A DNA stretch of 35,696 nucleotides from Oscillospiraceae bacterium (GTDB lineage: Bacteria; Bacillota; Clostridia; Oscillospirales; Oscillospiraceae). The stretch lies in assembly GCA_015068335.1 (NCBI GenBank), contig SVKT01000002.1, positions 1 to 35,696 on the forward strand, given 5' to 3'. How positions within the stretch are numbered: position 1 is the stretch's first letter; every line of letters starts with the position of its first letter. Below the pieces are notes generated by a model. It was not told the origin of the DNA. It made no database searches and saw only the letters and a list, made by a program, of their open reading frames with translations. Shown here one piece after another: positions 1 to 18,209 of the stretch. The translations under genes and the position numbers were made by a program.

Positions 1-3000
1 ACCGGCGTGTTTTGGAGCACCAGCCAGTCCGACCTGCGCAGAGAAAACCTGATCACCTACACGCCCAACGAGTCCGTGAAGCCCATCGTGACCTACGGCA
101 GCGTGCTGACGGAGAAGAATACCGTCTCCCGCACGGCGCGCCAGTTGGAGGCGGCGGGCTACCGCGTGGTGGCGGGTATGAACGGCGACTTTTACAACGT
201 GAACAACGGCCTGCCCATCGGCGTGGTCATTACGGAAGGCGAACTGCGCAGCAGCGACGCCGGCTATTACGCCATCGGCTTCCGCGCCGACGGAACGGCG
301 GTGCTGGGTCGCCCCCAGACGGCTACATATCTTGACCTGACGCCCCGCGCACCCGCTGCCGCGGAGCCGGACGCGGAAGATCCCGCGGAAGAACCTGCGG
401 AAACGCCCGAAGAAGCGCCCGTGGAGACGGCGGAAGTCCAGCAGGTGCTGCGCAAAGTCGCAGGCATCAACAAGGCACGGGTCTCCACCGGCGGCATCTA
501 CATCTATACCCGCGACTTTAACGCCGCCCACACCACCGGAACGGTGGAACCCGGCGTGGATGCGGTCTGCTCCGTGGTTGAGGGGCGTCTGGCCATCGGC
601 CAGACGATGAAACTGCGGGTGGAGCGCGTGACGGAAACGTCCGCCGCCACCCCCGTGGAGGAAGGACAGGTCGTGCTGTCCGCCAATGTGCAGTCCGGCG
701 TCTATTTCACAAGCGCGCTGAAAGGACTGACCGTGGGGCAGGAGATCACCCTGACCTGCACGTCTGCCGAGCCGGTGTGGAACGAAGTGGAATATGCGGT
801 GGGCGCGCTGTACTCTCTGGTGGAGAACGGTGCTGTGGTCTCCGGATTGCCTGCCGGCGCCAACCCCCGCACCGCCATCGGCCAGAAAAAGGACGGCACG
901 CTGATCTTCTACACCATCGACGGCCGGCAGTCCGACCACTCCATCGGCGCTTCTATGCAGCAGGTGGCGGAGCGGCTCATTGAACTGGGCTGCGTCACGG
1001 CGCTGTGCCTGGACGGCGGCGGGTCCACCACCCTTGCCGTGACCCAGCCGGACGCCCTGACGGCAACGCTGCTGAACCTGCCTTCCGGCGGACAGGAACG
1101 GGCGGTGTCCAACCAGATCTTCCTGGTGGCGCAGGCCGCACCCACCGGGCGGCTGGGCTCGTTCCATATGAGCGCGGAGAACCGGTTTGTACTGGCCGGC
1201 GGCCGGGTGGAGATCCGGGCCACCGCCATCGACACCAACTATATCCCGATGCCGGATGCGCAGTTTGACCTGTGGGCCAGCGCTGGCACGCTGGAAGGCA
1301 ATGTGCTGACCACGCCGGAGGAGGGCGGAGACATCATTGTAACCGCCGAAAGTGAGGGCAGACAGGGCATCACTACGGTCTATGCCATCGCAGATCCGGA
1401 CCAACTGCTGATTTGCAGCGACAGCGGAGAAACCCTGGACGCCCTGAGTGTGTCCCCCGGAACCACGATGCAGTTGCGCGCCTCTGCCTTCTATGGAAAC
1501 ATTGTGCTGAAAACGGATCCTGAACAGTTTACGTGGTCGGTCACGGGAGATATCGGCACCGTGGATGAGAACGGCGTGTTCCGCGCCCATACCCCCGGCA
1601 TAGGTACCGTCACGGTCACCGCCGCGGGAAAAACGGCCCGGATCTGGGTCGCGGTGTCCGAGATGCCGCTGATGCGCGTCGAGGATTTTGAACAGGAAGA
1701 AACCATTTTCGGCGGCGAGCAGGACGAAAATGTGTCCATAACGAAGACACGAGCGGAGGAATTCGTCCGCCTGGGACGCGCGGCCGGTGCGTTTGCCTAC
1801 ACGCTGGCAGAGGACGAAAACCGGACGATGACCGCGACGCTCCGCACCGATGTGCCGCTGAACAGCGCATACAGCGCCGTGAATCTGTGGGTCTATGGCG
1901 ACGGTTCCGGCAACCTGCTGGAACTGCTGTACCATCATACGGAGGACGGGGAGCAGCGCCGCCCGGTCGGCGTGCTGGACTTTACGGGCTGGCAGCCCTT
2001 TGCGGTGGAACTCTGGAATGCCGATGCGCTGCTGGGTCTTGTGGTCAACGGCGGACAGGCCGAGGAGACCTACGAGGAAAGCACGGCGCCTGCGGAGACG
2101 GTCGTTGAGACCGCTGCGGAGGATGTTGCGGAGTCCCCTGCCGAAACGCCCGCGGAGGAAGCGCCGGAACGCCCGGCCCCGGAGCCTGACGGCGTCATTT
2201 ATATCGACCAGATCGTGTCTTCTTTCTGTGGTGTGACCGATCAGGAAGCCCCTGTCATTTCGTTGTCGGAGAACGCCGGTCAGTTTACGGCGAAGATCAA
2301 AGACGGGGTGGACGGCATCCTGCCGGCAGACGCCCTGCGCGCAAGTTATGACGGCGCCGCGCTGGAATTCCAGTATGACGCGGAACGCGGCGTCCTGACG
2401 GCTGTGCTGCCGGAGAGCGACGGCGCGGCGCACCGTGTTACGGTGACGGCGGCTGACGCGTCCGGCAATCTGGGCCGCGCTTCGCTGGATCTTCCCGCGG
2501 GTGAGGACTGGACCTCACGCTTTTCCGATATGCAGGGCCATTGGAGCGAGGCCTATGTGGATTACCTGCATACCGCCGGCATCACCGGCGGCTATGCGGA
2601 CGGCACCTTCCATCCGGACGAGAAGATCTCCCGCGCCCAGTTCGCCACGATGCTGTTCCGCTACCTCAAACTGGACGCAGAGCAGTATGCTGCCGTGGAA
2701 CTGCCCTTTGCGGATCTCGACAAGATCCCCGGCTATGCGCTGCCCGCCATCAAGGCGCTGTATACGGAGGGCGTGGTGAACGGCAGCACGGGCGCCGATG
2801 GCCTGCTGTATTTCAACCCCGGCAACACCCTGACCCGGGCGCAGGCGGCGGCGATGCTGGGCCGCACGATGGAAAAGGGCTATGCGTCGGTGGAACTGCC
2901 CTTCACGGATGCGGCGGCGATCCCCAACTATGCAAAGAGCCACGTGCAGACGCTGGCCGCCATCGGCGTGTTCGGCGGCTATGGGGACGGGACCTTCCGT

Positions 3001-3057
3001 CCCGGCAGCCCGCTCACCCGTGGCCAGACCGCCAAGATTTTGTACCATCTGCTGTAA
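1..3057 (+). CDS. Secreted phosphodiester glycosidase (NAGPA-like) domain protein with C-terminal SLH repeats; 5' end outside window
   Basis: Frame +1 is open from base 1. Motifs VVAGMNGDFYN...LPIGVVITEGEL and FYTIDGRQSDHSIGASMQQVAERLIELGCVTALCLDGGGSTTLAV match NAGPA-type domains. C-terminus has three SLH-like repeats (FSDMQGHWSEAYVDYLHTAGITGGYADGTFHPDEKISRAQFATML...). Confidence 0.85.
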   Translation, partial: TGVFWSTSQSDLRRENLITYTPNESVKPIVTYGSVLTEKNTVSRTARQLEAAGYRVVAGMNGDFYNVNNGLPIGVVITEGELRSSDAGYYAIGFRADGTAVLGRPQTATYLDLTPRAPAAAEPDAEDPAEEPAETPEEAPVETAEVQQVLRKVAGINKARVSTGGIYIYTRDFNAAHTTGTVEPGVDAVCSVVEGRLAIGQTMKLRVERVTETSAATPVEEGQVVLSANVQSGVYFTSALKGLTVGQEITLTCTSAEPVWNEVEYAVGALYSLVENGAVVSGLPAGANPRTAIGQKKDGTLIFYTIDGRQSDHSIGASMQQVAERLIELGCVTALCLDGGGSTTLAVTQPDALTATLLNLPSGGQERAVSNQIFLVAQAAPTGRLGSFHMSAENRFVLAGGRVEIRATAIDTNYIPMPDAQFDLWASAGTLEGNVLTTPEEGGDIIVTAESEGRQGITTVYAIADPDQLLICSDSGETLDALSVSPGTTMQLRASAFYGNIVLKTDPEQFTWSVTGDIGTVDENGVFRAHTPGIGTVTVTAAGKTARIWVAVSEMPLMRVEDFEQEETIFGGEQDENVSITKTRAEEFVRLGRAAGAFAYTLAEDENRTMTATLRTDVPLNSAYSAVNLWVYGDGSGNLLELLYHHTEDGEQRRPVGVLDFTGWQPFAVELWNADALLGLVVNGGQAEETYEESTAPAETVVETAAEDVAESPAETPAEEAPERPAPEPDGVIYIDQIVSSFCGVTDQEAPVISLSENAGQFTAKIKDGVDGILPADALRASYDGAALEFQYDAERGVLTAVLPESDGAAHRVTVTAADASGNLGRASLDLPAGEDWTSRFSDMQGHWSEAYVDYLHTAGITGGYADGTFHPDEKISRAQFATMLFRYLKLDAEQYAAVELPFADLDKIPGYALPAIKALYTEGVVNGSTGADGLLYFNPGNTLTRAQAAAMLGRTMEKGYASVELPFTDAAAIPNYAKSHVQTLAAIGVFGGYGDGTFRPGSPLTRGQTAKILYHLL

Positions 3058-3067
3058 AAGAAAGCAA

Positions 3068-3100
3068 AAAAACCATCCACGCATCGCGTGGATGGTTTTT
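3068..3100. terminator. Bidirectional intrinsic terminator between the SLH gene and the XkdU-like gene
   Basis: Perfect hairpin AAAAACCATCCACGC-atc-GCGTGGATGGTTTTT between convergent genes, with A/T tracts on both sides. Confidence 0.9.
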
Positions 3101-3102: not shown

Positions 3103-3612
3103 TTATGCCCGGAATTCCATCAGGACCCCGCCGTGCAGGGCGGAGAAGCGCGGCTGTGTGCCGGCCAGATCGCCCACGGGGATCACGTCGATGGAGAGAT
3201 GGGCAGGTTTCAGGCGGGCAAGCGCCCGTTCCAGAGCGGCGGTGTCCTCCGGAACGCGGTTTTTGGAGATGGCGTGCAGACAAACGCGATAGCCGGCGAA
3301 ATCTTCCGTCATCCCGGCGCTGTCGGCGCCGCCCAGCGTTGCGGCCAGTTCCGTGAGATAGGCGGGGGTCAGCGTGCGGCCGCCCGCTATGGCGATGCGG
3401 ATGTCCAGCCGCCGCTTCTGCGCGTCGCCGCCGGAGCGGTCCTGCAAGCCGTAGTCCGCCTCCCAGAGGGAGAGCGCGTCCGTGGCGGTGCTGACGCAAA
3501 CCTGGGCGTTTTTGTCGGCCACGGCGCCCAACAGAAATGCCTCACCGGCGTCCACGGAGGAGAGCGTTTCCCCCACGGGGGAAAGTTTGGTTAAAAATTC
3601 GGGGAGTTTCAT
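3103..3612 (-). CDS. Phage tail protein, XkdU/DUF2313 (YmfQ, Mu gp48-like)
   Basis: Start MKLPEFLTKLSP at 3612; ATGA overlap with the upstream baseplate J gene; LTELAATLGGADSAG...FRVCLHA-type context and position after XkdT. Confidence 0.75.
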   Translation of the reverse strand: MKLPEFLTKLSPVGETLSSVDAGEAFLLGAVADKNAQVCVSTATDALSLWEADYGLQDRSGGDAQKRRLDIRIAIAGGRTLTPAYLTELAATLGGADSAGMTEDFAGYRVCLHAISKNRVPEDTAALERALARLKPAHLSIDVIPVGDLAGTQPRFSALHGGVLMEFRA

Positions 3613-4391
3613 CCGCGAACCTCCTGTACGGACAGGGCGCCGCATACCGGCACCGCGGTTTCCGCCAGCACCAGACTCTGGTCGCCGCCGTTGAGGGTGA
3701 AGCCGCTCACGTCCGCCACACCCTCGCAGTCCAGCAGAAGGCGCAGCGTCTTGGAGTAACTGACCGTGGTGGTGCGCAGCGCCAGATCACGGCAGAAGGC
3801 CGTCAGGGCGGCGGTAAATGCGGCGCATACGGCTTCGATCTCGACGCCGTCCATCAGTTTGATGGCGGCGGAGACATTCAGCGCCGTTTCTTCCGCGGCA
3901 AGGACGCGGGCGTCGGCGCCGATGGGGCGCTCACGATCCACCACGGCCTGGGTTGCGGCAAGCACCGCTGCGGAGGGGGCTTTTCCGTCCGAGGCCACCG
4001 TCACAATGTCCACGGTACCGTTTCCTCTGGCCAGAGGAAGCACCTTCACGCGGAGAAGGTCGGGATTTTCCAGACACCAGGCCTCGTAGTGGTCCACGTT
4101 GCCGGAGGCGGGGGTGCCGGAGAGTTTTTCCAGCGTGCGCTGGCGCAGGGCCTCGTCGCTTTCGTTTTCACGGCGGACAACGCCCCGGTCCGCGCAGACG
4201 GCGGTCAGCCAGTCGCCGGCGGCGGTGGAGACGAATGCGCGGCGTTCCAACCCGTCAATATCCATACTCCACAACTGCGCCATACCGTCGGCGCAGGCGC
4301 GGAGCACGTCGCCGGCAAAGGTGCCCTCCCGTGTGCTGCCGGGGCCGGTGTAGGCGTCCAGCAGCAGAGTCAACATTTCATCCCTGGTCAT
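3609..4391 (-). CDS. Baseplate J-like protein (XkdT-like)
   Basis: 260 aa; MTRDEMLTLLLDAYTG...RRAFVSTAAGDWLTAVCADRGVVRRENESDEALRQRTLE typical of baseplate J; operonic position. Confidence 0.85.
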   Translation of the reverse strand: MTRDEMLTLLLDAYTGPGSTREGTFAGDVLRACADGMAQLWSMDIDGLERRAFVSTAAGDWLTAVCADRGVVRRENESDEALRQRTLEKLSGTPASGNVDHYEAWCLENPDLLRVKVLPLARGNGTVDIVTVASDGKAPSAAVLAATQAVVDRERPIGADARVLAAEETALNVSAAIKLMDGVEIEAVCAAFTAALTAFCRDLALRTTTVSYSKTLRLLLDCEGVADVSGFTLNGGDQSLVLAETAVPVCGALSVQEVRG

Positions 4392-4825
4392 CCGATAGGA
4401 ACCTCCAATTTCTGAATATATTCGTCATAAACGGTGTGGACGGTGAATGACGCCTCCACCAGACTGCCCGCCCTTGAAAAGGAAAAGGTGTCAACGGCGG
4501 TGATGTAGGGCAGGACCAGCAAAGCATCCCGGATATACTGTTTCAGCCGGCTTTCCAGAATGCCCTGGTCGGTGACGCCGCCCAGAAGATGCTCCAACTC
4601 GTTTCCGTAATCTGCGGACCACGCGGTGCAGCAAAAGCGCCGGCTCTCCGGGTGCAGCGTGCGCCAGACCCATATCTTCACGGCGTCAATGCCTGACACG
4701 GTGTAGAAGGCGCCGTTTCGCAGGGCGAAGGCGCCGGTGTCCCGGTCCACGGCCCATTCGATAAACAGGGGGAGGGCGCTGCCCGCGGTCTCCTGGGACA
4801 CCGTCCCCCAGTCCGGAAAGATCAT
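4388..4825 (-). CDS. Phage baseplate wedge protein, DUF2634 / XkdS-like
   Basis: 145 aa, overlaps neighbours by 4 nt; located between DUF2577-like and baseplate J genes as in PBSX-type modules. Confidence 0.75.
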   Translation of the reverse strand: MIFPDWGTVSQETAGSALPLFIEWAVDRDTGAFALRNGAFYTVSGIDAVKIWVWRTLHPESRRFCCTAWSADYGNELEHLLGGVTDQGILESRLKQYIRDALLVLPYITAVDTFSFSRAGSLVEASFTVHTVYDEYIQKLEVPIG

Positions 4826-5082
4826 ATGCTCGCCTCCTCGATTTGAAATAAAATCACAAACCCCTCCTCACAGGGCAGCAGGGCCACTTCCCGGCCGAGA
4901 TCCTCCTGCCCGAATACCGTTCCGCGGGGGCAGAACAGACCCCGGCTGATCTCCCGGCCCCGTACCCGCAGCGTCAGGGGAGAGAGGGCGGTCAGCGTGC
5001 CGAACAAGCCGGCGGGAGATGCGGAGGGCTTTGTTCGCAGGAGATCCAGAAGTTCTCCGTAAATCATTCCGTTTGTGCCCAT
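4822..5082 (-). CDS. DUF2577 / XkdR-like phage protein
   Basis: 86 aa from MGTNGMIYGELLDLLR; the longer ORF start lies inside the upstream gene; order XkdQ-R-S. Confidence 0.65.
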   Translation of the reverse strand: MGTNGMIYGELLDLLRTKPSASPAGLFGTLTALSPLTLRVRGREISRGLFCPRGTVFGQEDLGREVALLPCEEGFVILFQIEEASI

Positions 5083-5152: not shown

Positions 5153-6046
5153 TCACTCCCGGATAAATTCCAGTTGCATCGCGGTGGTGTAAATGCCGCC
5201 CTCCCAGCGATGCTCCGCGGCGGTGACGGCGTATACACCGTCCAGCCCCCACTCGCTGCGGCGCAGTTCCACGGCGCAGCCGCAGCGGTAGTTCAGATTG
5301 CCCATCACCGTCACTTCGCCGTACAGACTTCGGCCGGACAGGGCGGTCTGCGCCTGCGCCGCCGGGTCGTCGCCGTTTTGCGGCAGGAAAGTCTGAAACT
5401 GCCCGTAGGCGGCGATGTCGTCGGCGCGCTCTGCCGCGGCGCGGACGATGTTCTTCCGGTCCACTATGGCACAGCGGTTGACCATACGTTCCAGCGTCGC
5501 CGTGCCGGAGACCTCCAACACCTGGGAGGGTTGCAGCACATAGACGATGTAGGCACCCTTCGTGACGCACAACGCATCGTCCCGGACGGAGATCTCGTAC
5601 TTTTCTCCTATGGTCTGGCGCAGGATGGAAAACGCGCTCTCACCGGAATAAGAGGCGAAGAAGCGCATCCCCGGCCCGGTCTCCACCGTACCCACGGCGA
5701 TGCCCAGATCCTCCGCCACCTGATGCACGATGTCCGCGCTCTCGCCGAAGTATGCGCCGCGCAGTTCGTTGCGGGTGAGGAAAATGCCCCGGTCATAGGC
5801 GGTGAGGGACACGCGGTCCGGGGTGCGCTCCAATCTGTGGATGCTGCCCAGAAACGCCTCGTTGCCGTCGTCATCCAGCAGCCGCACCGGATCACCCAAC
5901 GCGAGGGACGGTTTTTGAAGATAGGTGTCCGCGGCGGCCAGGAGGATGGTGGCGGTGAGCGTGGCGGCGGCCTCGCTGCGGGCTTTGTGCAGCGTCAGGG
6001 TTTCCAGCACCGGAAGGACCATCTGCTGTCCGATGTACAGTTTCAC
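5153..6046 (-). CDS. XkdQ-like phage late control/hub protein (gpD/VgrG-like)
   Basis: GTG start at 6046 (VKLYIGQQMVLPVLETLTLHKAR) with GTGA overlap to the upstream LysM gene; ends in TTAMQLEFIRE. Confidence 0.75.
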   Translation of the reverse strand: MKLYIGQQMVLPVLETLTLHKARSEAAATLTATILLAAADTYLQKPSLALGDPVRLLDDDGNEAFLGSIHRLERTPDRVSLTAYDRGIFLTRNELRGAYFGESADIVHQVAEDLGIAVGTVETGPGMRFFASYSGESAFSILRQTIGEKYEISVRDDALCVTKGAYIVYVLQPSQVLEVSGTATLERMVNRCAIVDRKNIVRAAAERADDIAAYGQFQTFLPQNGDDPAAQAQTALSGRSLYGEVTVMGNLNYRCGCAVELRRSEWGLDGVYAVTAAEHRWEGGIYTTAMQLEFIRE

Positions 6047-6699
6047 AGCGTGATCACCTGCCCGATCTGCAACTTGCGGGGATCGGAAACCCCGTTTTTG
6101 GCGGCCAGTTCCTGCCAGCGGGTGCCGTCGCCGAAAAACCGGCAGGCGATGTCCCACAGAGTGTCGCCCTTTTTCACGGTGTAAGTCTGGGGCGTGACGC
6201 GCTCGTCCGTTCTGGCGGGCGCGGACGGCACTCCGCCGGACGGCACTTTGCCGGACTGCCCCCCCACGGACTGCTTTTCCGCCAGAGCCGCCAGGGCGGA
6301 TTTGAATTTATACTCCCGCAGGGTGATGGAAAGCCACACGTCCGGGTCGCCCTCCCGCAGACACTCCGTTACGTCCTCGATCAGGAACGCATCGTTGATG
6401 TCGCTGCCGGAGAGGATCAGACGGATGGGGTCGCCGGAGTCCTGCCAACTTTTCAGCATCGAGAGAACGGTCTCGGGATCGTTCCCGTCGGAAAAGGGGG
6501 AGCGGGCGGCGGGGAGAAAGGTGGTCAGCCGCACTTCCCGCAGACCCCGCCCGCCCCAGAGGTTCACCGTGCCGCCCATAGCCAGGGCGGCGACGCGGTT
6601 CCGGTTGGGGCGGGATACGGAGATCTCCGCAGGGTTGACGGCGAAATAGATGCGCTCTGCTCCGTTGTTGTGCCAGAGCAAAACGGTTCTGGTGTTCAT
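6043..6699 (-). CDS. XkdP-like LysM-domain tail protein
   Basis: C-terminal LysM: TYTVKKGDTLWDIACRFFGDGTRWQELAAKNGVSDPRKLQIGQVITL. Confidence 0.88.
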   Translation of the reverse strand: MNTRTVLLWHNNGAERIYFAVNPAEISVSRPNRNRVAALAMGGTVNLWGGRGLREVRLTTFLPAARSPFSDGNDPETVLSMLKSWQDSGDPIRLILSGSDINDAFLIEDVTECLREGDPDVWLSITLREYKFKSALAALAEKQSVGGQSGKVPSGGVPSAPARTDERVTPQTYTVKKGDTLWDIACRFFGDGTRWQELAAKNGVSDPRKLQIGQVITL

Positions 6700-6709
6700 A
6701 ACAGTCCTC

Positions 6710-7576
6710 CTATCTTACGGCGGCGGCATTCCGCAGCCCCGCCAGAATGCGGCGGGCGACCTGCTCTGCCAGCGCATCTGCGCTGACGGCGTCCTGCTCC
6801 GGGAGGGGCAGCCGGACTTCGACGGCGTCTTCCAAAGCAGATTCCGCCGCCGGGGACTCGGCCGCGCGTATGGAGCGGTCGCCGGCTGCGGCGGAACGCT
6901 GCGGGGCTGTGGGAGCTTCCTTGAATGCTGCCGGCTGCGGCGTCCCAAAGGGGGCGGGGGCCGCCGGCTGCCGCAGGCCGTGCGCCGCTTCCAAACCGCC
7001 TTTTTCGGGGGCCGCCTGCCGGGGGTCGGCAGGCAGTTCCCCCGGCGCGGCAGGCGCGGCTGCGAGTACAGCAAGGGGCCCGGGGAAACGAGTGGGCGTC
7101 TCTGCCGCAGTCGTTTCCAGAGGGGAAGTGCCGGGCGCTGCCGTTGCGGCAAGGGGGTCCGGGAAAGCGCCGGGCAGGAGGGCGGGGTCCGCGGGAGCGA
7201 CCTCTGCCTCGTCGGCGATGCCTGCCGGCAGAGGAGTGCCCTCTGCGTGTGCGGCACGCTCCGGGAGAGACTGCTCCATCCCGCTCAGTTCCAGGATCGT
7301 CCCCACCGCCGCCTGCGTTTCCTCCTCGGAGACAAAGGCCAGGATCTCGTCCGGCTGGAACACTTCCCCCGTTTTGCGCAGCGCCTCTCCGGCCTCCTGC
7401 AATTCCCGGCAAGCGGCGTAGAGCACGGCGCGCGCTCCGCCGCTGCCGCGCAGCAGAGCGGTCAGTTCGGCCGGGGGCAGCGCCTCCACGGTCAAAAGAC
7501 CCAGTTCACCGCAGACGACCTGCGCGCGATTCCCTTTGCGGGAGATACGCTCCCGCAGAACATCCGCCAGCGCCAT
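6710..7576 (-). CDS. XkdN-like tail assembly chaperone with long Ala/Pro-rich C-terminal extension
   Basis: First ~105 aa chaperone-like (...FQPDEILAFVSEEETQAAVGTILELSGMEQS); remainder low complexity, ending SADALAEQVARRILAGLRNAAAVR. Overlaps the tail tube stop by ATGA. Confidence 0.6.
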   Translation of the reverse strand: MALADVLRERISRKGNRAQVVCGELGLLTVEALPPAELTALLRGSGGARAVLYAACRELQEAGEALRKTGEVFQPDEILAFVSEEETQAAVGTILELSGMEQSLPERAAHAEGTPLPAGIADEAEVAPADPALLPGAFPDPLAATAAPGTSPLETTAAETPTRFPGPLAVLAAAPAAPGELPADPRQAAPEKGGLEAAHGLRQPAAPAPFGTPQPAAFKEAPTAPQRSAAAGDRSIRAAESPAAESALEDAVEVRLPLPEQDAVSADALAEQVARRILAGLRNAAAVR

Positions 7577-8019
7577 TATTCAGCGGTCCGGATGCGATCC
7601 AGACATTGCAGGTCGCTGGGACGGAAGCGGAAGGGCAGTTTCTGCTGGTTTACCTCGCCCATTTTGTAACTGATGAAGGGCAGTTCGGTAAATGCCACGC
7701 CGGAGATGCTGTAACGCTCTTCCATCCCGCCGGCGGCGTCGGGATCTTTCAGCGCGGTGGTGATGGTGCAGCGCTTGTCCAGTCCGTTTCTGGCCTGTTC
7801 CAGAACCTCGAAAAAGCGACTGTAAACCTGTTTCAGGGTCATCGTGCCCTCGCCGGAATAGCCGGTGATCTTGCTGTCGATGTCCATCCCGAACTGCACC
7901 TTTTCCCGCTGCACCTTGACGGTGAGGGTCAGTTCGCTCAGTTCGGCGATGCGGGCGCCGTCCACCCACACCTCGGCGAAGGAGCCGGACAGGGTGCGGT
8001 TTGCCTGTAAATTGCTCAT
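7576..8019 (-). CDS. Phage tail tube protein (XkdM-like)
   Basis: 147 aa; MSNLQANRTLSGSFAEVWVDGARIAELSELTLTVKVQREKVQFGMDIDSKITGYSGEGTMTLKQVYSRF. Confidence 0.88.
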   Translation of the reverse strand: MSNLQANRTLSGSFAEVWVDGARIAELSELTLTVKVQREKVQFGMDIDSKITGYSGEGTMTLKQVYSRFFEVLEQARNGLDKRCTITTALKDPDAAGGMEERYSISGVAFTELPFISYKMGEVNQQKLPFRFRPSDLQCLDRIRTAE

Positions 8020-8035: not shown

Positions 8036-9064
8036 TTACATAGCGATGCGCAGGGAGAGGTCTTCCATCGCGTCACAGAACGTCAGGCTCGCTTCCAGAA
8101 ACACCTCGCTGCCGGTGTTGGCCCGCAGGATCTGGGCGTCCGTCATATCGCCGGTGTCGATGCCGCGGGATTCCAGATAGGTCTTCTGCCCGGCAAAGGA
8201 CACCGCGCAGCGGTTGTCGGCGGTCTTGTCCAGCACATCGCCCTCCAACTGGGCCAGATAGGCATTGATGGCGGTGACCAGAAGCAGTTTGTTGTCGTAA
8301 TCGTTGAGGACTTTGCCGATGTAGCCGGACTCGAAGGTTCTGGCGATATCGGTGCGGATCAGGTCGATGCCCTCCACGATCTTGATCTTCCGGAAGGGCG
8401 CGCCCTTGTCGGCGGTCAGCGTGGTCAGGGAATTGACGGCGCGGCCCAGGCGGTAACCGTCCTGGCCTCTGACGATGATGAGTCTGCCGGCGTCCACCTC
8501 GGCATCGGCGTCCTCATAGCCTGCGCAGGACACCACCTCGTCCAGCGCCACATAGGTGGCGGAGCGGGTCAGGGGCAGCGCGGCCAGAATGGCGGCAACG
8601 CGGACGGCGTAGTCGGCGGCCTCGATGGCGCCGTCGTCCAGAACCAGCGCGTCGGCGCAGAGGTTCACAATGCCCTCGTGATCGGCGGCGGTGTCGGCCA
8701 CCACGGCCTTGACGCCGCGGCCGCGGCTGCGCTGGTCCTTGATGAAACTCACCACCTCGCCGGGGTCCATACCGGGGGCGGCCAGCCAGTCGAATTGCAG
8801 GCGTTCCAGGGCAGCCAGCGTGCCGTCTCCGGCGCGCAGGACGCACACCTTGGAGGGCGCTGCGCGGAAGGCCAGCGCCAGCAGGCGGTAATTGTCCGCG
8901 GTAAACTGCTCCGCGGGGACCTCGGAGAGGCTGCGGTAGACGGCCTCGGCAGCCCCGCCGGCAGTCCCGTCATCCAGGACAACCGCCAGAACGCCTCGGG
9001 CGGAGCGGGTGATGGCGGATACGGCTGCGGTTTCAAATGCGATAAAAATTTCGGGTAAACCCAA
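8036..9064 (-). CDS. Contractile tail sheath protein (XkdK-like)
   Basis: 342 aa; MGLPEIFIAFETAAVSAITRSARGVLAVVL... resembles clostridial prophage tail sheath N-termini; followed by the tube gene. Confidence 0.88.
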   Translation of the reverse strand: MGLPEIFIAFETAAVSAITRSARGVLAVVLDDGTAGGAAEAVYRSLSEVPAEQFTADNYRLLALAFRAAPSKVCVLRAGDGTLAALERLQFDWLAAPGMDPGEVVSFIKDQRSRGRGVKAVVADTAADHEGIVNLCADALVLDDGAIEAADYAVRVAAILAALPLTRSATYVALDEVVSCAGYEDADAEVDAGRLIIVRGQDGYRLGRAVNSLTTLTADKGAPFRKIKIVEGIDLIRTDIARTFESGYIGKVLNDYDNKLLLVTAINAYLAQLEGDVLDKTADNRCAVSFAGQKTYLESRGIDTGDMTDAQILRANTGSEVFLEASLTFCDAMEDLSLRIAM

Positions 9065-9113: not shown

Positions 9114-9536
9114 TCAAATCTCGAAATACAGAGTGTTCATAGACTCTGTGACCGGCGCGGCGGCGGTTTCCGCAGGCGGGACGGGGACGCACAGTTCCAG
9201 AGAAAAGGTCAGGCGTTCCTCCTCCGTGCGGATGTCCAGTGGATGCAGATGACGGCGCGTGCCGGAACGTTCCAGAGGGATCCCCCGCAGCAGGTGCGGC
9301 ACAAGGGAGGATACCAGCGCCGTGCCCTCGTCCCGCTCCCGGTCGCTGACGACGGTGACGGTCACCTGATAGGTGTGCTCCGCCTGCCGTCCGCCGCAGA
9401 TGAGCACGGTGCCACTCTCCTGCACGGATACCGCCAGCAGAGGGTATGTCCCGCGCACCCGCGTGCGGTCGGACACCGTGGTTATGCCGGTCTGCTCCTG
9501 CAAATAGGCCCTTACGGCCTCCTGAATGGTTTTCAC
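9114..9536 (-). CDS. Tail terminator/tail completion-like phage protein
   Basis: GTG start VKTIQEAVRAYLQEQTGITTVSDRTRVRGTYPLLAV; GTGA overlap with upstream gene; located just before the sheath gene. Confidence 0.6.
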   Translation of the reverse strand: MKTIQEAVRAYLQEQTGITTVSDRTRVRGTYPLLAVSVQESGTVLICGGRQAEHTYQVTVTVVSDRERDEGTALVSSLVPHLLRGIPLERSGTRRHLHPLDIRTEEERLTFSLELCVPVPPAETAAAPVTESMNTLYFEI

Positions 9537-9883
9537 GGCTCCGTCACCTCCCTGATCTCCACAACGGTCACGCAGTGGGAGGGGTAGCGAATGCTGTCGG
9601 AAGATCTGCCGTGAAACACGCGGCCTGCGGTGTCGGTGATCTCCAAGCGGTCTCCCAACTGAAAAGTGCGCTGGGGCAATGTGTAAAGGCTGAGACGATA
9701 CGCCGCCTCCGGCAGCACGTAGGTGCTGTCGGGGGGCGCAGGCGCCGCAACCATAGCCGAGCGGCTGAGGGCGCATTTTGCATCTTCGCAGACCGGCTGC
9801 TCGCCATCCGGGCCCATCCGCCACGCGGAAACGCGGTGGTAGTAGGTGCGGGAGAGGATGGCTGCATAAGCGTTGTCGGTCAT
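9533..9883 (-). CDS. Head-closure / minor capsid-like protein
   Basis: 116 aa between connector and tail terminator genes; GDRLEITDTAGRVFHGRSSDSIRYPSHCVTVVEIREVTEP. Confidence 0.5.
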   Translation of the reverse strand: MTDNAYAAILSRTYYHRVSAWRMGPDGEQPVCEDAKCALSRSAMVAAPAPPDSTYVLPEAAYRLSLYTLPQRTFQLGDRLEITDTAGRVFHGRSSDSIRYPSHCVTVVEIREVTEP

Positions 9884-10206
9884 ACGGCATCCCTCCCCAG
9901 CCGGCCCAGTCGGCGAAACGGCGCCAGACCGGCAAGGGGACTGGCGGCAGCGCTGCCGGTGTCATAGGTGATGGAAGTGTCGCCCCGGGTCAGGGCCTTG
10001 ACCGTACTGCCGTTTCCGTCGGCGGCTGCCGCCACCAACTGTGCCAGGGGCAGTTCCATCGCCTCAGGGATATCCTCTCTGCGGCAGTAGGCAAGGGCCC
10101 ACAGCACCACCATAGAGACCAGCGCGTCGCCGTTTTCTCCCAGAGAGCGTTCCAGAAGAAGTTCCGCCTTGCTCCGGACAGAGGGGATCTTGTCGGCGGC
10201 GCTCAT
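9880..10206 (-). CDS. Head-tail connector-like protein
   Basis: 108 aa immediately downstream of the capsid gene, overlapping start/stop; position-based call. Confidence 0.45.
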   Translation of the reverse strand: MSAADKIPSVRSKAELLLERSLGENGDALVSMVVLWALAYCRREDIPEAMELPLAQLVAAAADGNGSTVKALTRGDTSITYDTGSAAASPLAGLAPFRRLGRLGRDAV

Positions 10207-11138
10207 CAGGCCTCCACGATGGCGCCGATGGAGGCCAGACGCTTTTCGGGCACAAACAGGTCGTACAGATAGCGGGCCTGAATGGAAGTGCCGTCGAAGA
10301 ACTGGTTCTCCTGAGGGCCGAACTGCTTGATGGAATCCAGTTTGCTGACAGCCAGAGGGGTGTCGCAGTGGGCGATGAGCACGGCGATGTCCTGTGCATC
10401 GGCGCCGGCCACGATGCCGCCGGCGTTTTCGTCGCCGTCCTGAATGGTGATGGTGGTCTTCATACGGTTCTGGGGCACGAAGATGCAGGGCAGATCGTCC
10501 AGCATCATCACGTTGTCGTAGGTCACGCCGTTGATGGAAACGCTGTTGCCGAAGGTGATGCTGTGGTAGGTGTCGTTGGCGGCTTCCAGGAAAGCGGTCT
10601 TGTTCTTGTGACTGACGAGGGCCACATAGCCGTCCATTTCCTCGGCGTCGTCGCGAATGGTTTGCAGCAGAGCGCTGACGGTGGAAATGGCGTTGCCCTT
10701 GGTCAGGGTCTGGGTGAGGATGTGGCTGTCGCTGTGGGTGTCGCCCTCTGCCAGAGCGTACAGTTTGTTGATTCGGTACATATCCTGCTCACGCACCAGG
10801 GCAGAGCGGGAGAACTCGCGGATGACGTTTTCGGCGGTGACGATGAAGCCGGTGTCATTGGGGTCGGTGCGGTCCAGGGCGAACTTCACGCCGCGGTCCA
10901 TAGAGAGGGGATAGGACTTCCAGGCGTTGGTCACGGTGCCGCTGGGGTAGGCGGAACCGTCGGACTTGGAGGCGTCATAACTGCCGAGCCCGGTGGTGGA
11001 CAGGGTGGAGATCTCCACATCACGCCCGCCGGTAAAGCGGACCTTGCCGGCCTCGGGGACCATCCACGCGGTGGCGGACAGGGCGGTCATCTCCTCGTCG
11101 ATAAACTGCTGGTATGCTTTTGCGTAGTCGAAAGCCAT
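10206..11138 (-). CDS. Phage major capsid protein
   Basis: 310 aa; MAFDYAKAYQQFIDEEMTALSAT...VRFTGGRDVEISTLSTTGLGSYD...LSMDRGVKFALDRTD...; strong RBS AGGAGG upstream. Confidence 0.8.
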   Translation of the reverse strand: MAFDYAKAYQQFIDEEMTALSATAWMVPEAGKVRFTGGRDVEISTLSTTGLGSYDASKSDGSAYPSGTVTNAWKSYPLSMDRGVKFALDRTDPNDTGFIVTAENVIREFSRSALVREQDMYRINKLYALAEGDTHSDSHILTQTLTKGNAISTVSALLQTIRDDAEEMDGYVALVSHKNKTAFLEAANDTYHSITFGNSVSINGVTYDNVMMLDDLPCIFVPQNRMKTTITIQDGDENAGGIVAGADAQDIAVLIAHCDTPLAVSKLDSIKQFGPQENQFFDGTSIQARYLYDLFVPEKRLASIGAIVEA

Positions 11139-12037: not shown

Positions 12038-14503
12038 GTGAAACATAAATTACCCGAAGCAAAACAGAATGCGGTCGCCGGGAAAAAGGGCCGCGCCGCC
12101 GCAGGGGCAGTCCTGCCGAAGGGCGGAAAACTTTCCGGTGATACGCTGAAAGCGATCCTGTTTGCGGTGCTGTTGTTCGCCGCAATGACCGTCCAGACAG
12201 GGAAGATGACGATGATCCTGGTCGCCATTGCGTTTCTTTCCGTGGTGCCCTTCAAGGGGAAGCGGATGGAGCATCTGTCCCGCTGCCTGAGTGTTCCCGT
12301 GCTTGGCCTTCTGGGCTTTGCACTGGTCAGCGGTTTGGCGGCGGTGTATTCCCCCTTCGATTCGGACGCGGTGGCGGAACTGTATAAATTCCTGGCCGCC
12401 TTTTCCCTGGCGGTGATCCTGCTGTCGTGGTTTGAAAAGCGCCATACGCGCAGCCTGCTGTGGGGCGGCGCTGCCGTCAGTTCCATCATCGCGTTTTTGA
12501 GCATCGATATGGCCGCCGATGGACGGTGGTTCAAAATCTTCAAAACGGTCACGGAAGCGCTGGACGGCCATTTCAGCGACATCATCCAGGCCCCCGGCCG
12601 CATTTCCGGCATTTACGGCGACGCCAACGTGACGGCAAACCTGTTTGCCGTGGCGGTTCTGGTGCTGCTTTATTTGCTCACTGCCGAAACAAGCCGGAAC
12701 AAGCGGTTTGCAGCGTATGTACTGCTGGGCGTTTGTTCGCAGGGCTTCATTCTCTCTATGAGCCGCGGCGCCATTGTGATCTTGGCGGTGGCGATGCTGG
12801 TGATGCTTGCCGCTGTGGGGAAAGAGCAGCGTCTGCGCCTGTTCCTGCTGATGTTTGCGGCTGCTGCGGTGGCGGTGGCGGGGTCCGCCGCTGTGATGGC
12901 AGTCCTGTATAAGAGCACGCTTCTGGCAGAACTGCTGGTTCTGGCCTCCGGATTGCTGATCTTTGCGGCAGACCGGTTTGCCGGCGCGCGGCTGCTTGCG
13001 CTGCTGGAAGGGAACGGCAGACGGGTGGCAGGCACTGTGGCTGCGCTGGCGGCGCTTTGCGTGGCCTATGCCGTGACCGCTGTCACGGTCACCACCGCGT
13101 ATACCTTTGACGAGTCGGCTTATTTTACCAGAGCCGTTCAGGTCTCCTCCGGAACGTATGAGGTTTCCGGCGACTGGGACGACGGCGTATACGTCTGGGT
13201 CGTGGCAAAGACGAGAGCGGAAGTCCTGATGGGCCGGGAAACAGAAGTCTACGCAGGCCCCCTCGCCGGTGCAGCCTTCACGATACCGGAGGGTACGATC
13301 CAGGCCGAGTTCCGCTTCAACGGAACGCCGGGGACGAAATTGAAGTCCCTGACCCTTTCCGACGGCACAAAGGTGCCCCTGGGCTACCCGCTGATGCCGG
13401 AGTTTTTGGCGGTCAGAGTGCAGGGCGGCATCTTTGCGGACAACAGCGTGCTGCTCCGCCTGCAATATATGAAAGACGCCCTGACTCTGTTTGCGCAAAG
13501 CCCTCTGGTGGGCCACGGTCTGGCCAGTACCGTCAACCTGTATCCCTCGGTGCAGCCGTTCTTTTATGAGTCCAGATACGTCCATAACCACATTTTGCAG
13601 GTTATGAGCGACACGGGTCTTGTCGGCGTGATCTTCTTTGCGGCGTTTTTGGGCGGCGTTTTGTGGCTGCTGGTGCGTCAACTCCGGAAGGAACGCGACG
13701 GTCTTGCCGCCGTGCTGCTGGCCTGCTGGGTGATGATCAATCTCCACGGCCTGATGGAGATCAGTTTCTCAGTCAGAGGCTATCTGTGCGCGGCGTTTTC
13801 CGTGCTGGTGCTTCCTGTGGTGCTGTATGCCCGGCCTCTTTCGGAAAAGAAGCGGGTTGCCCGCAGCGGGACGGCTGTGTTCGCGGGTGCGGCTGCGCTG
13901 TATCTCGCTGTTTTCGGCGTGCTGCTGGGGGTTCACCGCTCCGTGGCACAAAAGAGCGCGCAGGTGTCTCCCATCAGCCGCGCCGACTATATGGAAACAC
14001 TGAAAGGCTATATCCGGACGGATGTATTTGACAATGCGCGGCATAAACTGAATTTTGTGGGGAATGCCGTGCTGAGCCAGGATGACCTGTATGATGCGGA
14101 TATGGAGCGCTGGGCAGAAGACCTGCGCCGCAGCGGCACGTATACCAACTGCTCCGGTCTGGCCCGGTACTATTACCTCCCCAGAGGGGAATATGAAGAG
14201 ATGTTTGCCTGCTCCCGGGAGGGCATCGCGCAGGTTGCATCGTTGGATGACGGCTGGAATCTGCAAATGGACTTCTATCGGGGCGAGGTTCTTGATACCA
14301 TCGGTCCGGAAGATGTGGAACGCTATCTGGACGGCGTGCTGGCGCTGGGCGCCGGCCTGGACGCCTATAACGAGGGCCGTATGGACACGGTCGCCCTGTC
14401 GGAGAAGAATGCGGCCTTCCTGACGCTGGCGCAGCGGCTTCGCGAAGGCGGCATCAGCGGCTCCGCGGCGTATCTGACGCTGGCGGGAAATGCGGCAAAC
14501 TGA
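12038..14503 (+). CDS. O-antigen ligase/polymerase-like (Wzy_C family) membrane protein with inserted extracytoplasmic domain
   Basis: 821 aa, multiple TM segments; LVGHGLASTVNLYPSVQPFFYESRYVHNHILQVMSDTGLVGVIFFAAFLGGVLWLL; GTG start with RBS. Confidence 0.8.
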   Translation: MKHKLPEAKQNAVAGKKGRAAAGAVLPKGGKLSGDTLKAILFAVLLFAAMTVQTGKMTMILVAIAFLSVVPFKGKRMEHLSRCLSVPVLGLLGFALVSGLAAVYSPFDSDAVAELYKFLAAFSLAVILLSWFEKRHTRSLLWGGAAVSSIIAFLSIDMAADGRWFKIFKTVTEALDGHFSDIIQAPGRISGIYGDANVTANLFAVAVLVLLYLLTAETSRNKRFAAYVLLGVCSQGFILSMSRGAIVILAVAMLVMLAAVGKEQRLRLFLLMFAAAAVAVAGSAAVMAVLYKSTLLAELLVLASGLLIFAADRFAGARLLALLEGNGRRVAGTVAALAALCVAYAVTAVTVTTAYTFDESAYFTRAVQVSSGTYEVSGDWDDGVYVWVVAKTRAEVLMGRETEVYAGPLAGAAFTIPEGTIQAEFRFNGTPGTKLKSLTLSDGTKVPLGYPLMPEFLAVRVQGGIFADNSVLLRLQYMKDALTLFAQSPLVGHGLASTVNLYPSVQPFFYESRYVHNHILQVMSDTGLVGVIFFAAFLGGVLWLLVRQLRKERDGLAAVLLACWVMINLHGLMEISFSVRGYLCAAFSVLVLPVVLYARPLSEKKRVARSGTAVFAGAAALYLAVFGVLLGVHRSVAQKSAQVSPISRADYMETLKGYIRTDVFDNARHKLNFVGNAVLSQDDLYDADMERWAEDLRRSGTYTNCSGLARYYYLPRGEYEEMFACSREGIAQVASLDDGWNLQMDFYRGEVLDTIGPEDVERYLDGVLALGAGLDAYNEGRMDTVALSEKNAAFLTLAQRLREGGISGSAAYLTLAGNAAN

Positions 14504-14516
14504 CCATCCCATAAAG

Positions 14517-14548
14517 AACCGTCTCTCCTTGCGGAGAGGCGGTTTTTT
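14517..14548 (+). terminator. Intrinsic terminator after the Wzy_C-like gene
   Basis: AACCGTCTCTCC-ttgc-GGAGAGGCGGTTTTTT hairpin with U tract. Confidence 0.88.
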
Positions 14549-14608
14549 GCGCCGCGGGGGCGGGAAAAACCGGCCCGAAAGCGGCGGCGAAAAGGAGAAA
14601 GGTGGGGG

Positions 14609-14637
14609 TTGAATCTGTATGGAGGTAGTGCTAAAAT
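14609..14637 (+). promoter_or_regulatory. Sigma-A type promoter of the polysaccharide operon
   Basis: TTGAAT - 17 bp - TAAAAT, preceded by a G-tract. Confidence 0.7.
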
Positions 14638-14735
14638 AATATAAGTATTATTATGGCCGTATTGTGCGCTTGTGCGCCGGACAAGCCCGGCTCCGGCGGC
14701 AGGCGCTGAAAGGCCATACGGAAAGGGATGCCGAT

Positions 14736-15854
14736 ATGCAGGAACGCATTTTTCTTTCTTCTCCCACGATGCACGGGGAAGAGCAGATGTTTGTAAAAGA
14801 AGCCTTTGACACGAACTGGGTGGCCCCTCTCGGGAAAAATGTCAATGAACTGGAACGGGAGATGGCGGCGTATCTGGGCGTCGGCCACGCCGCGGCGCTG
14901 ACCTCCGGTACGGCAGCGCTGCACCTGGCCATCAAACTGGCCGGGGTGAAGGCGGGCGATAAGGTGTTCTGCTCCGACCTGACGTTTTCTGCCACGGTGA
15001 ATCCGGTCAGTTACGAGGGTGCCGAGCAGGTGTTTATCGACAGTGAGCGGGACACCTGGAATATGGACCCCCGCGCGCTGAAAAAGGCCTTTGAAAACTA
15101 TCCGGACTGCAAATGCGTGATCGTAGTCAATCTGTACGGCACGCCGGCCAGACTGGACGAGATCCGCGCCATCTGTGACGCCCACGGCGCCACCCTCATC
15201 GAAGATGCGGCAGAGAGCCTGTCCGCCACGTATCAGGGCCGGCAGACCGGCACCTTCGGCAAGTACAGCGCCATCAGTTTCAACGGCAATAAGATCATCA
15301 CCACCTCCGGCGGCGGTATGCTGCTGAGTGATGACGAGGCCGCCATTTCCAAGGCCCGCTTCTGGTCGACCCAGTCCCGGGAGCCGTTCCCCTGGTATCA
15401 GCACGAGGAGATCGGCTACAACTACCGGATGAGCAACATCGTGGCCGGTATCGGCCGCGGCCAACTGCTCCATTTGGAAGAACACCGGCAGCGCAAAGAG
15501 GAGATCTACCGTACATACGAAGCCGGATTGCGCGGCTTGCCCGTGCAGATGAACCCGTACCCGGCAGACAGCCGCCCCAACTTCTGGCTCAGTTGCCTGC
15601 TGATCGATGAGGACTGCGCCGTTACCCCGGAGCAGATCCGTCTGGCGCTGGAAAAGGAGAACATCGAGGCGCGTCCCATCTGGAAGCCGATGCATATGCA
15701 GCCGGTCTTTGCTGACCGGGCCTTCGTTGCCGTGGAGAGCGGCGACGGCGTGGGCGGCGATATTTTTTCCCGGGGTCTGTGCCTGCCCAGCGACATCAAG
15801 ATGACGCAGGAACAGCAGGCAGAGGTCATCCGGCTCATCAGAGCGCAGTTCTGA
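14736..15854 (+). CDS. DegT/DnrJ/EryC1/StrS aminotransferase (PglE-like UDP-4-amino-sugar aminotransferase)
   Basis: MQERIFLSSPTMHGEEQMFVKEAFDTNWVAPLGKNVNELEREMAAYLG...; AISFNGNKIITTSGGGML PLP-Lys context; start chosen with RBS GGAAAGGGA. Confidence 0.9.
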   Translation: MQERIFLSSPTMHGEEQMFVKEAFDTNWVAPLGKNVNELEREMAAYLGVGHAAALTSGTAALHLAIKLAGVKAGDKVFCSDLTFSATVNPVSYEGAEQVFIDSERDTWNMDPRALKKAFENYPDCKCVIVVNLYGTPARLDEIRAICDAHGATLIEDAAESLSATYQGRQTGTFGKYSAISFNGNKIITTSGGGMLLSDDEAAISKARFWSTQSREPFPWYQHEEIGYNYRMSNIVAGIGRGQLLHLEEHRQRKEEIYRTYEAGLRGLPVQMNPYPADSRPNFWLSCLLIDEDCAVTPEQIRLALEKENIEARPIWKPMHMQPVFADRAFVAVESGDGVGGDIFSRGLCLPSDIKMTQEQQAEVIRLIRAQF

Positions 15855-15983
15855 CCCGCCGCCGGACGGCGCACGATCGTTCTGCGCCGAACGTCCGTGG
15901 GCGTTGGCGGCCGCGCCGCCGGGTGACACAGGCGTTTTGAAAATAAACCTGCCCTGCACCGCGGGGCGTTTGGAGAGTCAGTT

Positions 15984-16598
15984 ATGTACCGTAAATATGG
16001 TAAGCGCTTCTTTGATATTGTCCTCTCCGGCGGCGCCTTGCTGGTGCTTTGGCCGGTGCTGTTGGTCGTGGCGGTGCTGGTGCGCTGCAAACTGGGCAGC
16101 CCTGTGATTTTCTGTCAGGAGCGGCCCGGCAAGGACGAAAAGATCTTCAAAATGTATAAATTCCGCTCTATGACCGACGCCCGGGATGAAAACGGCGAAC
16201 TGCTGCCCGACGATGTGCGGCTGACGAAACTGGGGCGCATCCTTCGCGCCACCAGTCTGGACGAACTGCCGGAACTCTGGAACATCTTCAAGGGGGATAT
16301 GTCCATTGTCGGCCCCCGCCCACTGCTGGTGCGGTATCTGCCGCTCTATAACGAAGAACAGCGCCGCCGCCACGACGTCCGTCCCGGCCTGACGGGACTG
16401 GCACAGGTCATCGGAGATGTGGATATGACCTGGGAGCGGCAGTTTGCGCTGGATGTGGAATATACGGAGCGGATCCGCCTGATCGACGATTGCAAAATCA
16501 TTCTTCTGACGGTGAAGCAGGTTTTTGTCAGAAGAAAGCACGATTACGGCACGTACGTGCGGGAAGAATTTAGAGGAAGTGATTTGGTTGAGAAATAA
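15984..16598 (+). CDS. PglC-like bacterial sugar transferase (initiating phosphoglycosyl transferase)
   Basis: 204 aa; KRFFDIVLSGGALLVLWPVLLVVAVLVRCKLGSPVIFCQERPGKDEKIFKMYKFRSM...RATSLDELPELWNIFKGDMSIVGPRPLLVRYLPLY. Confidence 0.93.
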   Translation: MYRKYGKRFFDIVLSGGALLVLWPVLLVVAVLVRCKLGSPVIFCQERPGKDEKIFKMYKFRSMTDARDENGELLPDDVRLTKLGRILRATSLDELPELWNIFKGDMSIVGPRPLLVRYLPLYNEEQRRRHDVRPGLTGLAQVIGDVDMTWERQFALDVEYTERIRLIDDCKIILLTVKQVFVRRKHDYGTYVREEFRGSDLVEK

Positions 16599-17250
16599 TC
16601 GCCTCTTTATCTATTGCGCCGGTGGTTTGGGCCGAGATGTACTGCGGCTGGCGCGGCGTATCCAGCAGGAAAGTGATTTCTGGACGGAGATTCGCTTTAT
16701 TGATGATCGCAGTGTAGGCGTGACTGTATGCGATGCGGAAGTATGGAGTTTTGAACAGTATTTGGAACGGCGCAGAGCCGATGATGAATTTGTGATTGCT
16801 ACAGGTGAAACGGTATTTCGGAAGACATTGTATGAGAAGTTGATGGCGTACGACTGTAAGTTTACAACTATCATCCATCCTTCGGTCTATCTGGATAAGT
16901 ACGATTTTCTTGGTGAAGGGTGTGTTCTTACAGAAGGGACCGTGTTGGGAGGATATGCGTCCTTCGGGAAATGTACATATGTCAATTTGGGATGCATTCT
17001 AGGCCATAATGTATCATTGGGGGATTTTGTCACAGTATCGCCTGGTGCCATTATTTCCGGCAATGTTTCCGTTGGTGACGGAACGTATATCGGCACCGGA
17101 GCCATCATCCGTGACGAAGTAAAAATCGGCAAAAACTGTATCATCGGTATGGGAAGCGTCGTGACGAAGGATATCCCCGACGGGGTCGTAGCCTACGGCT
17201 CGCCGTGCTGCGTGGTGCGTGAAAATAAAGACGGGATCGTGTTCCGTTAA
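16588..17250 (+). CDS. NeuD/PglD-family hexapeptide-repeat acetyltransferase
   Basis: TTG start LRNNRLFIYCAGGLGRDVLRLARRI; left-handed beta-helix hexapeptides ...GEGCVLTEGTVLGGYASFGKCTYVNLGCILGHNVSLGDFVTVSPGAIISGNVSVGDGTYIGTGAIIRD; GAGGAAGTG RBS. Confidence 0.85.
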   Translation: MRNNRLFIYCAGGLGRDVLRLARRIQQESDFWTEIRFIDDRSVGVTVCDAEVWSFEQYLERRRADDEFVIATGETVFRKTLYEKLMAYDCKFTTIIHPSVYLDKYDFLGEGCVLTEGTVLGGYASFGKCTYVNLGCILGHNVSLGDFVTVSPGAIISGNVSVGDGTYIGTGAIIRDEVKIGKNCIIGMGSVVTKDIPDGVVAYGSPCCVVRENKDGIVFR

Positions 17251-17261
17251 GGAGAGCGTGT

Positions 17262-18209
17262 ATGGTCAGTGCGAAACAACTTTGCTGCGCATTGGAGGCG
17301 GCGGGAATGTCCGCCTCGGCGCAGGGAAACATCGATGCGGAGATCGGCGGCTTTTCCAGCCTCTTTCGCTATCGTCCCGGAACGATGACGTTTATCGTCC
17401 CGGAGCGGGCGTTTGCCGATTATGCAGGCCGGTTTTCGGAAAACGGCATCCCGGTGCTGATCGCCGCCAGACCGGAGGAAAAGCCTGCCGCCGCACAATG
17501 TGTCATCTATGTGGAGGATCCCCGCAAAGCATTTTTCCATCTGGTGGAGACCTTCTTCGATGTGCAGGAGTCCGAAGAGGTCACCGGCATTTCCGCAGAT
17601 CCGTCGGTATACCGTGCGCGCTCGTTCGTGTCCCCCGCCGCGCAGATCGGCGAAGGCGTGCAGATCGGCGTGGGCTGCGTCATTGAGGGCGGCGTCACCA
17701 TCGGCGGGGGAACGGAGATCCACCACCGTGTCATCATCCGCTCCGGAACGAAGATCGGGAGCAACTGCACGGTGTATTCCGGCGCCTGCATCGGCGAACG
17801 GGGTTTCAATTATACCGTGGGGCCCAACGGCGAGAAGCATATGCTCAAACATTACGGCGGCGTTTCCATCGGGAATGACGTCCACATCGGCGAGAACGTC
17901 TGCATCAGCCGGGGCGCCATTGACGATACCGTCATCTGCGACGGCGTGAAGATCGATGCGCTGGCGCATATCGCCCACAACTGCGTGATCGGAAAACACT
18001 CTATGGTTCTGGTGCCCACCAGCATCAGCGGCAGTGTGGAGATCGGCGAAAACTGCCATATTGCGGCGGACATCATCCGCAATCAGGTGCAGGTCGCAGA
18101 CAATGCGATGCTGGGACTGGGTTCTGTGGTGGTCAGGGACATCCCGGAGAACACCGTTGCCTACGGCAACCCGGCACGGCCCGTGCGGAAGCGCTTTGAG
18201 GAGGCTTGA
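17262..18209 (+). CDS. LpxD-like UDP-sugar N-acyltransferase
   Basis: 315 aa; N-terminal FRYRPGTMTFIVPERAFADYA-type domain plus long hexapeptide helix (IGEGVQIGVGCVIEGGVTIGGGTEIHHRVIIRSGTKIGSNC...AHIAHNCVIGKHSM). Confidence 0.78.
   Translation: MVSAKQLCCALEAAGMSASAQGNIDAEIGGFSSLFRYRPGTMTFIVPERAFADYAGRFSENGIPVLIAARPEEKPAAAQCVIYVEDPRKAFFHLVETFFDVQESEEVTGISADPSVYRARSFVSPAAQIGEGVQIGVGCVIEGGVTIGGGTEIHHRVIIRSGTKIGSNCTVYSGACIGERGFNYTVGPNGEKHMLKHYGGVSIGNDVHIGENVCISRGAIDDTVICDGVKIDALAHIAHNCVIGKHSMVLVPTSISGSVEIGENCHIAADIIRNQVQVADNAMLGLGSVVVRDIPENTVAYGNPARPVRKRFEEA

Follow-up and report, generated by a model that had tools for sequence, protein, structure and literature searches.

Tape measures are regarded as obligatory in long-tailed particles, and as separate from the tail assembly chaperones. 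How, then, would a contractile tail be built from a PBSX-type gene module in which a single small gene takes the place of both? We addressed this question at a locus in an Oscillibacter MAG (G000, 78% complete), using a 35,696-nucleotide stretch of its DNA, hereafter referred to as the window.

The tape measure slot is occupied by a single 288-residue ORF

The minus strand of the window encodes, in this order, the capsid, adaptor, two neck proteins, sheath, tube, a 288-aa ORF, the LysM protein and XkdQ, R, S, T and U (dN/dS, where given, is for the single genome pair G000 and G066):

10206-11138, minus: major capsid protein (MCP; phrog_422; dN/dS 0.11)
9880-10206, minus: head-tail adaptor (phrog_132)
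9533-9883, minus: neck protein (position and conservation)
9114-9536, minus: neck / tail-completion protein (position and conservation; no family match)
8036-9064, minus: contractile tail sheath, XkdK type (phrog_1480; related to the diffocin sheath CD1363, E = 1.4e-61)
7576-8019, minus: tail tube (DUF2001, phrog_365; dN/dS 0.04)
6710-7576, minus: XkdN-like chaperone / mini-tape fusion, 288 aa (architecture shared by 10 other loci)
6043-6699, minus: LysM / XkdP protein (phrog_380)
5153-6050, minus: XkdQ-like hub protein (PF24032, phrog_400; start inferred)
4822-5082, minus: XkdR-position protein, putative spike/needle (position and conservation in relatives; no family match; start inferred)
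4388-4825, minus: XkdS sheath initiator (PF10934)
3609-4391, minus: XkdT, short baseplate J protein (PF04865)
3103-3645, minus: XkdU-like wedge protein (Mu gp48; PF10076)

The original prediction that the tape slot is empty, with the 288-aa XkdN-like ORF lying directly between the tube and LysM genes, is borne out by gene calls and family matches: no XkdO-type tape measure lies between the two, the slot consisting of one 867-bp gene that has base 7576 in common with the tube ORF. The encoded protein has no Pfam or PHROG match, nor does any of 50,697 phage records match it; Foldseek against the PDB returned nothing significant, and a PDB profile search only a weak, unrelated match. A tape measure hidden in another frame of the window was ruled out by a six-frame scan with a tape-measure C-terminal profile (see below), in which the sole match is the end of the 288-aa ORF itself.

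For comparison we used 15 loci: four annotated phages and 11 prophage-like loci, mostly from Oscillibacter genomes. In all 15, the slot spans 1.65-4.05 kb and encodes a chaperone and a tape measure of 390-1125 aa, usually with a short further ORF.

As for the remainder of this end of the window, no convincing solved structural relative was found for the XkdR-position protein. The plus strand carries a gene for a phosphodiester glycosidase (NAGPA) protein that bears three SLH domains (7-3057), directly convergent with the end of the tail cluster. Long antisense ORFs (P0001; 2515-3084, minus, beneath the SLH domains) were taken as shadows, and the ORF at 2515-3084 is probably spurious.

A chaperone head is joined to a tape measure C-terminus

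The 288-aa protein divides into three parts:

7271-7576, minus: tail-assembly-chaperone head, residues 1-102 (AlphaFold and HHalign)
6794-7270, minus: low-complexity linker, residues 103-261 (pLDDT about 43; 17% Pro, 28% Ala)
6716-6781, minus: C-terminal amphipathic helix, residues 266-287, homologous to tape-measure C-termini (putative spike anchor; profile and AlphaFold)

Sequence and model comparisons support assignment of the head as an XkdN-type tail assembly chaperone. As in that family, it is a fold of about 100 residues encoded right after the tube gene; it aligns with the phage XkdN family (HHalign Prob 93.8, E = 1.7e-7), and is predicted with a pLDDT of 72-91, apart from residues 1-20 (about 60-71). 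The three top-ranked BFVD matches are also tail assembly chaperones, but weak ones (E 0.13-0.39). In the phage comparators a short extension ORF, likely a frameshift product, lies between the chaperone and the tape measure; it has no match in the XkdN-like proteins or in the six frames of the window.

The C-terminus, which is identical to the one quoted in the original prediction as reminiscent of tape measures, was compared with a profile of phage tape-measure C-termini only (the 42 final residues in each of 13 proteins), with no XkdN-like proteins included. The match is positive (E = 5.7e-6 with Z=1, that is, one sequence searched; 14.9 bits), and none of 500 shuffles of the window's tail reached this score (maximum 7.2 bits). 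With the same setting of Z=1, the profile matches the exact C-terminus of 9/11 XkdN-like proteins at E <= 0.005, the remaining two being L067, with a weak C-terminal match (E = 0.11), and L074, whose best match is internal. When 1533 ORFs from the loci collected were ranked, nearly all readable XkdN-like proteins followed immediately after the true tape measures, and C-terminal matches in unrelated ORFs did not exceed 0 bits. Profile-profile comparison of the C-terminus with tape measures by HHalign gave a modest match over ~20 residues (Prob 58, E = 1e-4). AlphaFold assigns the body of the C-terminal helix a pLDDT of 80-92.

The phage tape-measure C-terminal segment in turn matches residues 778-813 of the diffocin tape measure CD1366 (E = 7e-6), and in the diffocin structure tape residues 795-817 form helices that bind the spike trimer (PMC11329794). 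Since the phage segment corresponds to the spike-binding part in diffocin, the retained part is the one that would anchor the tape. As judged by the profile and its controls, the protein has the spike-anchoring C-terminal helix with the family motif that is characteristic of XkdO-type tape measures. That the protein is a chaperone fused to a miniature tape measure, as originally predicted, is well supported: an XkdN-type head is joined to the C-terminal end of a tape, and the long tape is absent. The tail length of 25-30 nm that was attached to this prediction did not hold up, as detailed below.

The linker is variable and predicted to be disordered

The long, mostly helical and often membrane-spanning body of XkdO-type tape measures is missing from the fusion. 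AlphaFold predicts the linker to be disordered between the folded head and the confident helix, and it has no continuous coiled coil. No strongly hydrophobic or transmembrane segment was detected in the fusion with a 19-residue hydropathy cut-off, a crude one below which several true tape measures also fall. Among orthologues the linker varies about sixfold in length, from about 60 to 357 residues, and between the window and its closest relative (G066) it shows indels and a dN/dS of 0.49.

The estimate of 25-30 nm had been obtained with the established relation of 1.5 Å per residue. This rule is not transferable to a Pro/Ala-rich linker that varies in length and forms no continuous helix. At the 1.7 Å per residue of diffocin, residues 104-288 would correspond to about 31 nm, a figure that assumes a helical tape, which is not predicted. 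Given the lack of a continuous coiled coil and the sixfold length variation, any role of the linker as a ruler is at most putative.

Seven homologues (L064-L067, L070, L074 and L075) carry HExxSE repeats in the linker, the last of which runs into the anchor helix. The repeats are spaced by 11 or 15 residues (20 instances each; the remainder are nearly all sums of these) and, in the two loci examined at the DNA level, they are tandem units of 78 bp. For a homologue with such repeats, AlphaFold yielded low confidence over the repeat region, again with a folded head and a confident C-terminal helix. Repeats of 11 residues with F/W markers have been described for tape measures (Belcaid et al. 2011, PMC3271669). 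The seven homologues resemble those tape measures in having spaced repeats, but their repeats contain prolines, which argue against one long helix, and no such repeats were found in the window's own copy.

The architecture is shared by homologous clusters

Scanning GTDB genomes with the capsid protein yielded 13 loci, including those of the isolates O. valericigenes An890 (L065) and Oscillibacter sp. MSJ-31 (L075). Ten of the 13 have a readable slot of 0.56-1.45 kb with one XkdN-like ORF (186-483 aa) and no tape measure; left out of this count are L071 (G020), which is broken, and L069 and L072, which stop short of the slot. With the window included, the tape-less fusion architecture is thus present in 11/11 readable clusters, although, being related to one another, the eleven homologues are not independent tests. 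The nearest relative of the window's cluster is L063 (genome G066; 93% MCP identity), and the sheath is 71-77% identical to its copies in four genomes of the same genus. The best phage match to the window's MCP among the 50,697 records is 32% identical. Because the homologues share the architecture down to 55% MCP identity, and because the window's genes are under purifying selection (see below), a fresh deletion scar accompanied by pseudogenisation, which would have undermined the original prediction, is rejected. One copy of the cluster does appear to be decaying: in G020 (L071 / L032; G020:C129) the sheath, capsid and TerL matches contain internal stops, and the XkdT and XkdN frames are interrupted, unless these are assembly errors.

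A tape measure of this system encoded at a distance in the same genome would likewise have been damaging to the prediction. We searched the carrier genomes with three kinds of query – PF10145, a related tape measure and a three-member profile – and found none in G000 or in six other carriers, two of which are 96% complete. The exceptions are G020, with phage-type tape matches on other contigs only, and G094, with a decayed tape-measure fragment only. The latter (L088 250-471, minus; G094:C73) is an isolated tape C-terminus with stops, lies beside host-type genes and is presumably the remnant of another decayed prophage.

The element is split over host loci and under purifying selection

The portal of the element is encoded in the window, away from the tail and near recR:

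30588-31790, minus: portal, SPP1 type, split-off locus (PF05133; conserved in relatives; dN/dS 0.21)
30283-30591, minus: small conserved protein after the portal, possible scaffold (conserved in relatives; no family match)
29206-30267, minus: putative tail fibre (conserved beside the portal in relatives; after XkdU in L064)
28931-29191, minus: small conserved protein after the fibre, 86 aa (conservation)

Between this portal/fibre locus (28931-31790) and the tail lies a cluster of polysaccharide genes, an arrangement seen on one contig in the window, G066, G093 and G028. In the window, polysaccharide biosynthesis genes (Wzy-type ligase, aminotransferase, glycosyltransferases, epimerases) lie between and around the portal and tail loci, at 12038-28738 and 32106-34004 on the plus strand, and related genes lie between portal and tail in G028, G066 and G093. 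A close portal homologue is present in six other carriers, the G093 copy having two stops; G020 has a fragment, and none was found in G021.

Large terminase was first sought with PF04466, PF03237 and the TerL of a second module (described below), with no match in G000 and five other carriers. With TerL from a related G032 prophage as the query, a lineage TerL was recovered in 9/9 carriers (43-56% identical to that of the prophage; broken in G020). It lies divergently beside the capsid gene in 7/9 carriers and on another contig in G000 and G066, and the G000 protein retains the ATPase motif. The element is distributed over two or three chromosomal loci: terminase, portal/fibre and capsid/tail. 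For the capsid/tail module we could identify neither a small terminase nor lysis genes, and none of the window's ORFs that were searched matched an integrase or a replication gene.

The element is present in 9/86 Oscillibacter genomes, with open, syntenic clusters in seven besides the window's. MCP identity roughly tracks the host marker prfB, with the exception of G075, where the MCP is more similar than the marker predicts. The near relatives G063 and G087 (96-97% complete) are without the cluster, and this patchy distribution indicates that losses or horizontal transfer occurred.

As judged by sequence comparison of the one pair G000 and G066, the capsid, tail, portal and terminase genes are under purifying selection: those capsid and tail genes that were tested have dN/dS values of 0.04-0.22, TerL has 0.05 and the portal 0.21. 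Within the XkdN-like protein, the same pair gives 0.17 for the head and 0.25 for the C-terminal anchor, as compared to 0.49 for the linker. Phage-derived head, packaging and contractile-tail genes that are kept by selection (dN/dS from two genomes only) and dispersed over several host loci resemble a contractile gene transfer agent (GTA), which is the most likely kind of element here.

Oscillibacter carries a second contractile module, with TerS, TerL, portal, capsid, sheath, tube, chaperone, a short slot protein, LysM and baseplate genes (L100, L105 (G007:C22), L101/L106, L107, L169-L172). Its TerL has matches in up to 65/86 Oscillibacter genomes, some of the weaker of which may be other phages; the module is possibly a genus-wide GTA. 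The tape slot of this module, as read in seven genomes, encodes a separate protein of 136-278 aa whose ends are conserved and whose middle varies. As this protein has no match to the tape C-terminal profile, it is a parallel to the fusion and not a shown homologue.

A reduced tape measure and its alternatives

Our preferred reading, which we consider probable, is that a tape measure was reduced to its C-terminal anchor and fused in frame to the chaperone in a domesticated contractile phage-like element of Oscillibacter. The C-terminal helix would seat as a bundle on the spike/hub, like the homologous diffocin segment; the tethered chaperone heads would recruit tube subunits; and the linker would occupy the interior of a very short tube until capping by the terminator. 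The fusion suggests a very short-tailed, possibly gene-transferring particle, and we infer that the protein may reside inside the tube and limit tail length, with the particle packaging host DNA. The full proposal – a contractile-tailed Oscillibacter GTA encoded at two or three loci, in which a chaperone-linker-anchor protein replaces chaperone and tape and yields a very short contractile tail – is more tentative, and we give it something short of even confidence. A conserved fusion that retains only the spike anchor would show which part of the tape is indispensable and make the role of the chaperone testable.

The strongest competitor leaves the fusion itself intact: the particle could be a tailocin-like killing device of the PBSX or diffocin kind, with no function in DNA transfer. 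The sheath and baseplate are of the diffocin/XkdK lineage, and for PBSX, tailocin action has been described in spite of DNA packaging (PMC12946183). We nevertheless regard this as somewhat unlikely, given that capsid, portal and terminase are all under purifying selection and that the fusion is without the membrane helices of the diffocin tape, which are proposed to form the killing pore (PMC11329794). It is also unlikely, slightly more so, that the XkdN-like protein is a chaperone with a mere adapter tail, in which case there would be no tape, tail length would be set via tube supply or the terminator, and the helix would dock the chaperone on the baseplate without ever entering the lumen. 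The predicted disorder of the linker, its length range of about 60-357 residues and the absence of a membrane segment would all fit such a protein, but its C-terminus is homologous to tape anchors and encoded exactly where XkdO ends, and the second Oscillibacter module still has a slot protein of its own, short and conserved at its ends.

A real tape measure encoded elsewhere and missed by our searches is quite improbable. The incompleteness of the window's genome (78%) and the quick divergence of tape measures leave some room for it; against this, six of the eight other carriers, among them the two that are 96% complete, gave no tape measure with any of the three kinds of query, and G094 and G020 offer only the decayed fragment and the phage-type matches on other contigs. 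Least probable is a decaying prophage remnant, its tape measure deleted and the fusion a functionless relic: the dispersal of the genes over several loci and the broken G020 copy, in which the matches to sheath, TerL and MCP have internal stops and the frames of XkdT and XkdN are interrupted, are what one would expect of decay, but not the open syntenic clusters in seven other Oscillibacter genomes, nor a dN/dS well below 1 (G000 versus G066) for tail, capsid, terminase and portal.

Comparison with known systems

The window resembles the PBSX-type tail module (xkdK-xkdU) and the C. difficile diffocin in gene order, in the homologous sheath, tube, chaperone, LysM protein and baseplate, and in the C-terminal anchor. 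Both known systems have a separate tape measure, which in diffocin is an 817-aa protein spanning about 1388 Å (PMC11329794), whereas the window encodes chaperone and anchor in one 288-aa protein. Relative to diffocin, the tape body and its membrane helices are gone.

RcGTA of Rhodobacter capsulatus is siphovirus-like and non-contractile, and its tape measure is a protein of its own that is not known to be joined to a chaperone. This tape, g11, has about 216 residues for five tube rings, with a helix of 20 residues at its end (PMC7296036). Measurements of GTA-like packaging exist for Oscillospiraceae (Onthomonas); the only genes identified are those of the podovirus-like FpGTA of Faecalibacterium (PMC12946183). 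By description, the window's element can be likened to RcGTA as a domesticated phage-like element with a short tape, and to FpGTA, where packaging was measured, in its clostridial gut host and split genes (two operons in FpGTA; PMC12946183). The split, selected gene set reported here offers concrete candidate genes for the GTA-like packaging recently measured in Oscillospiraceae. The two differ in the tail: FpGTA is reported to be podovirus-like, whereas the element of the window encodes a contractile tail.
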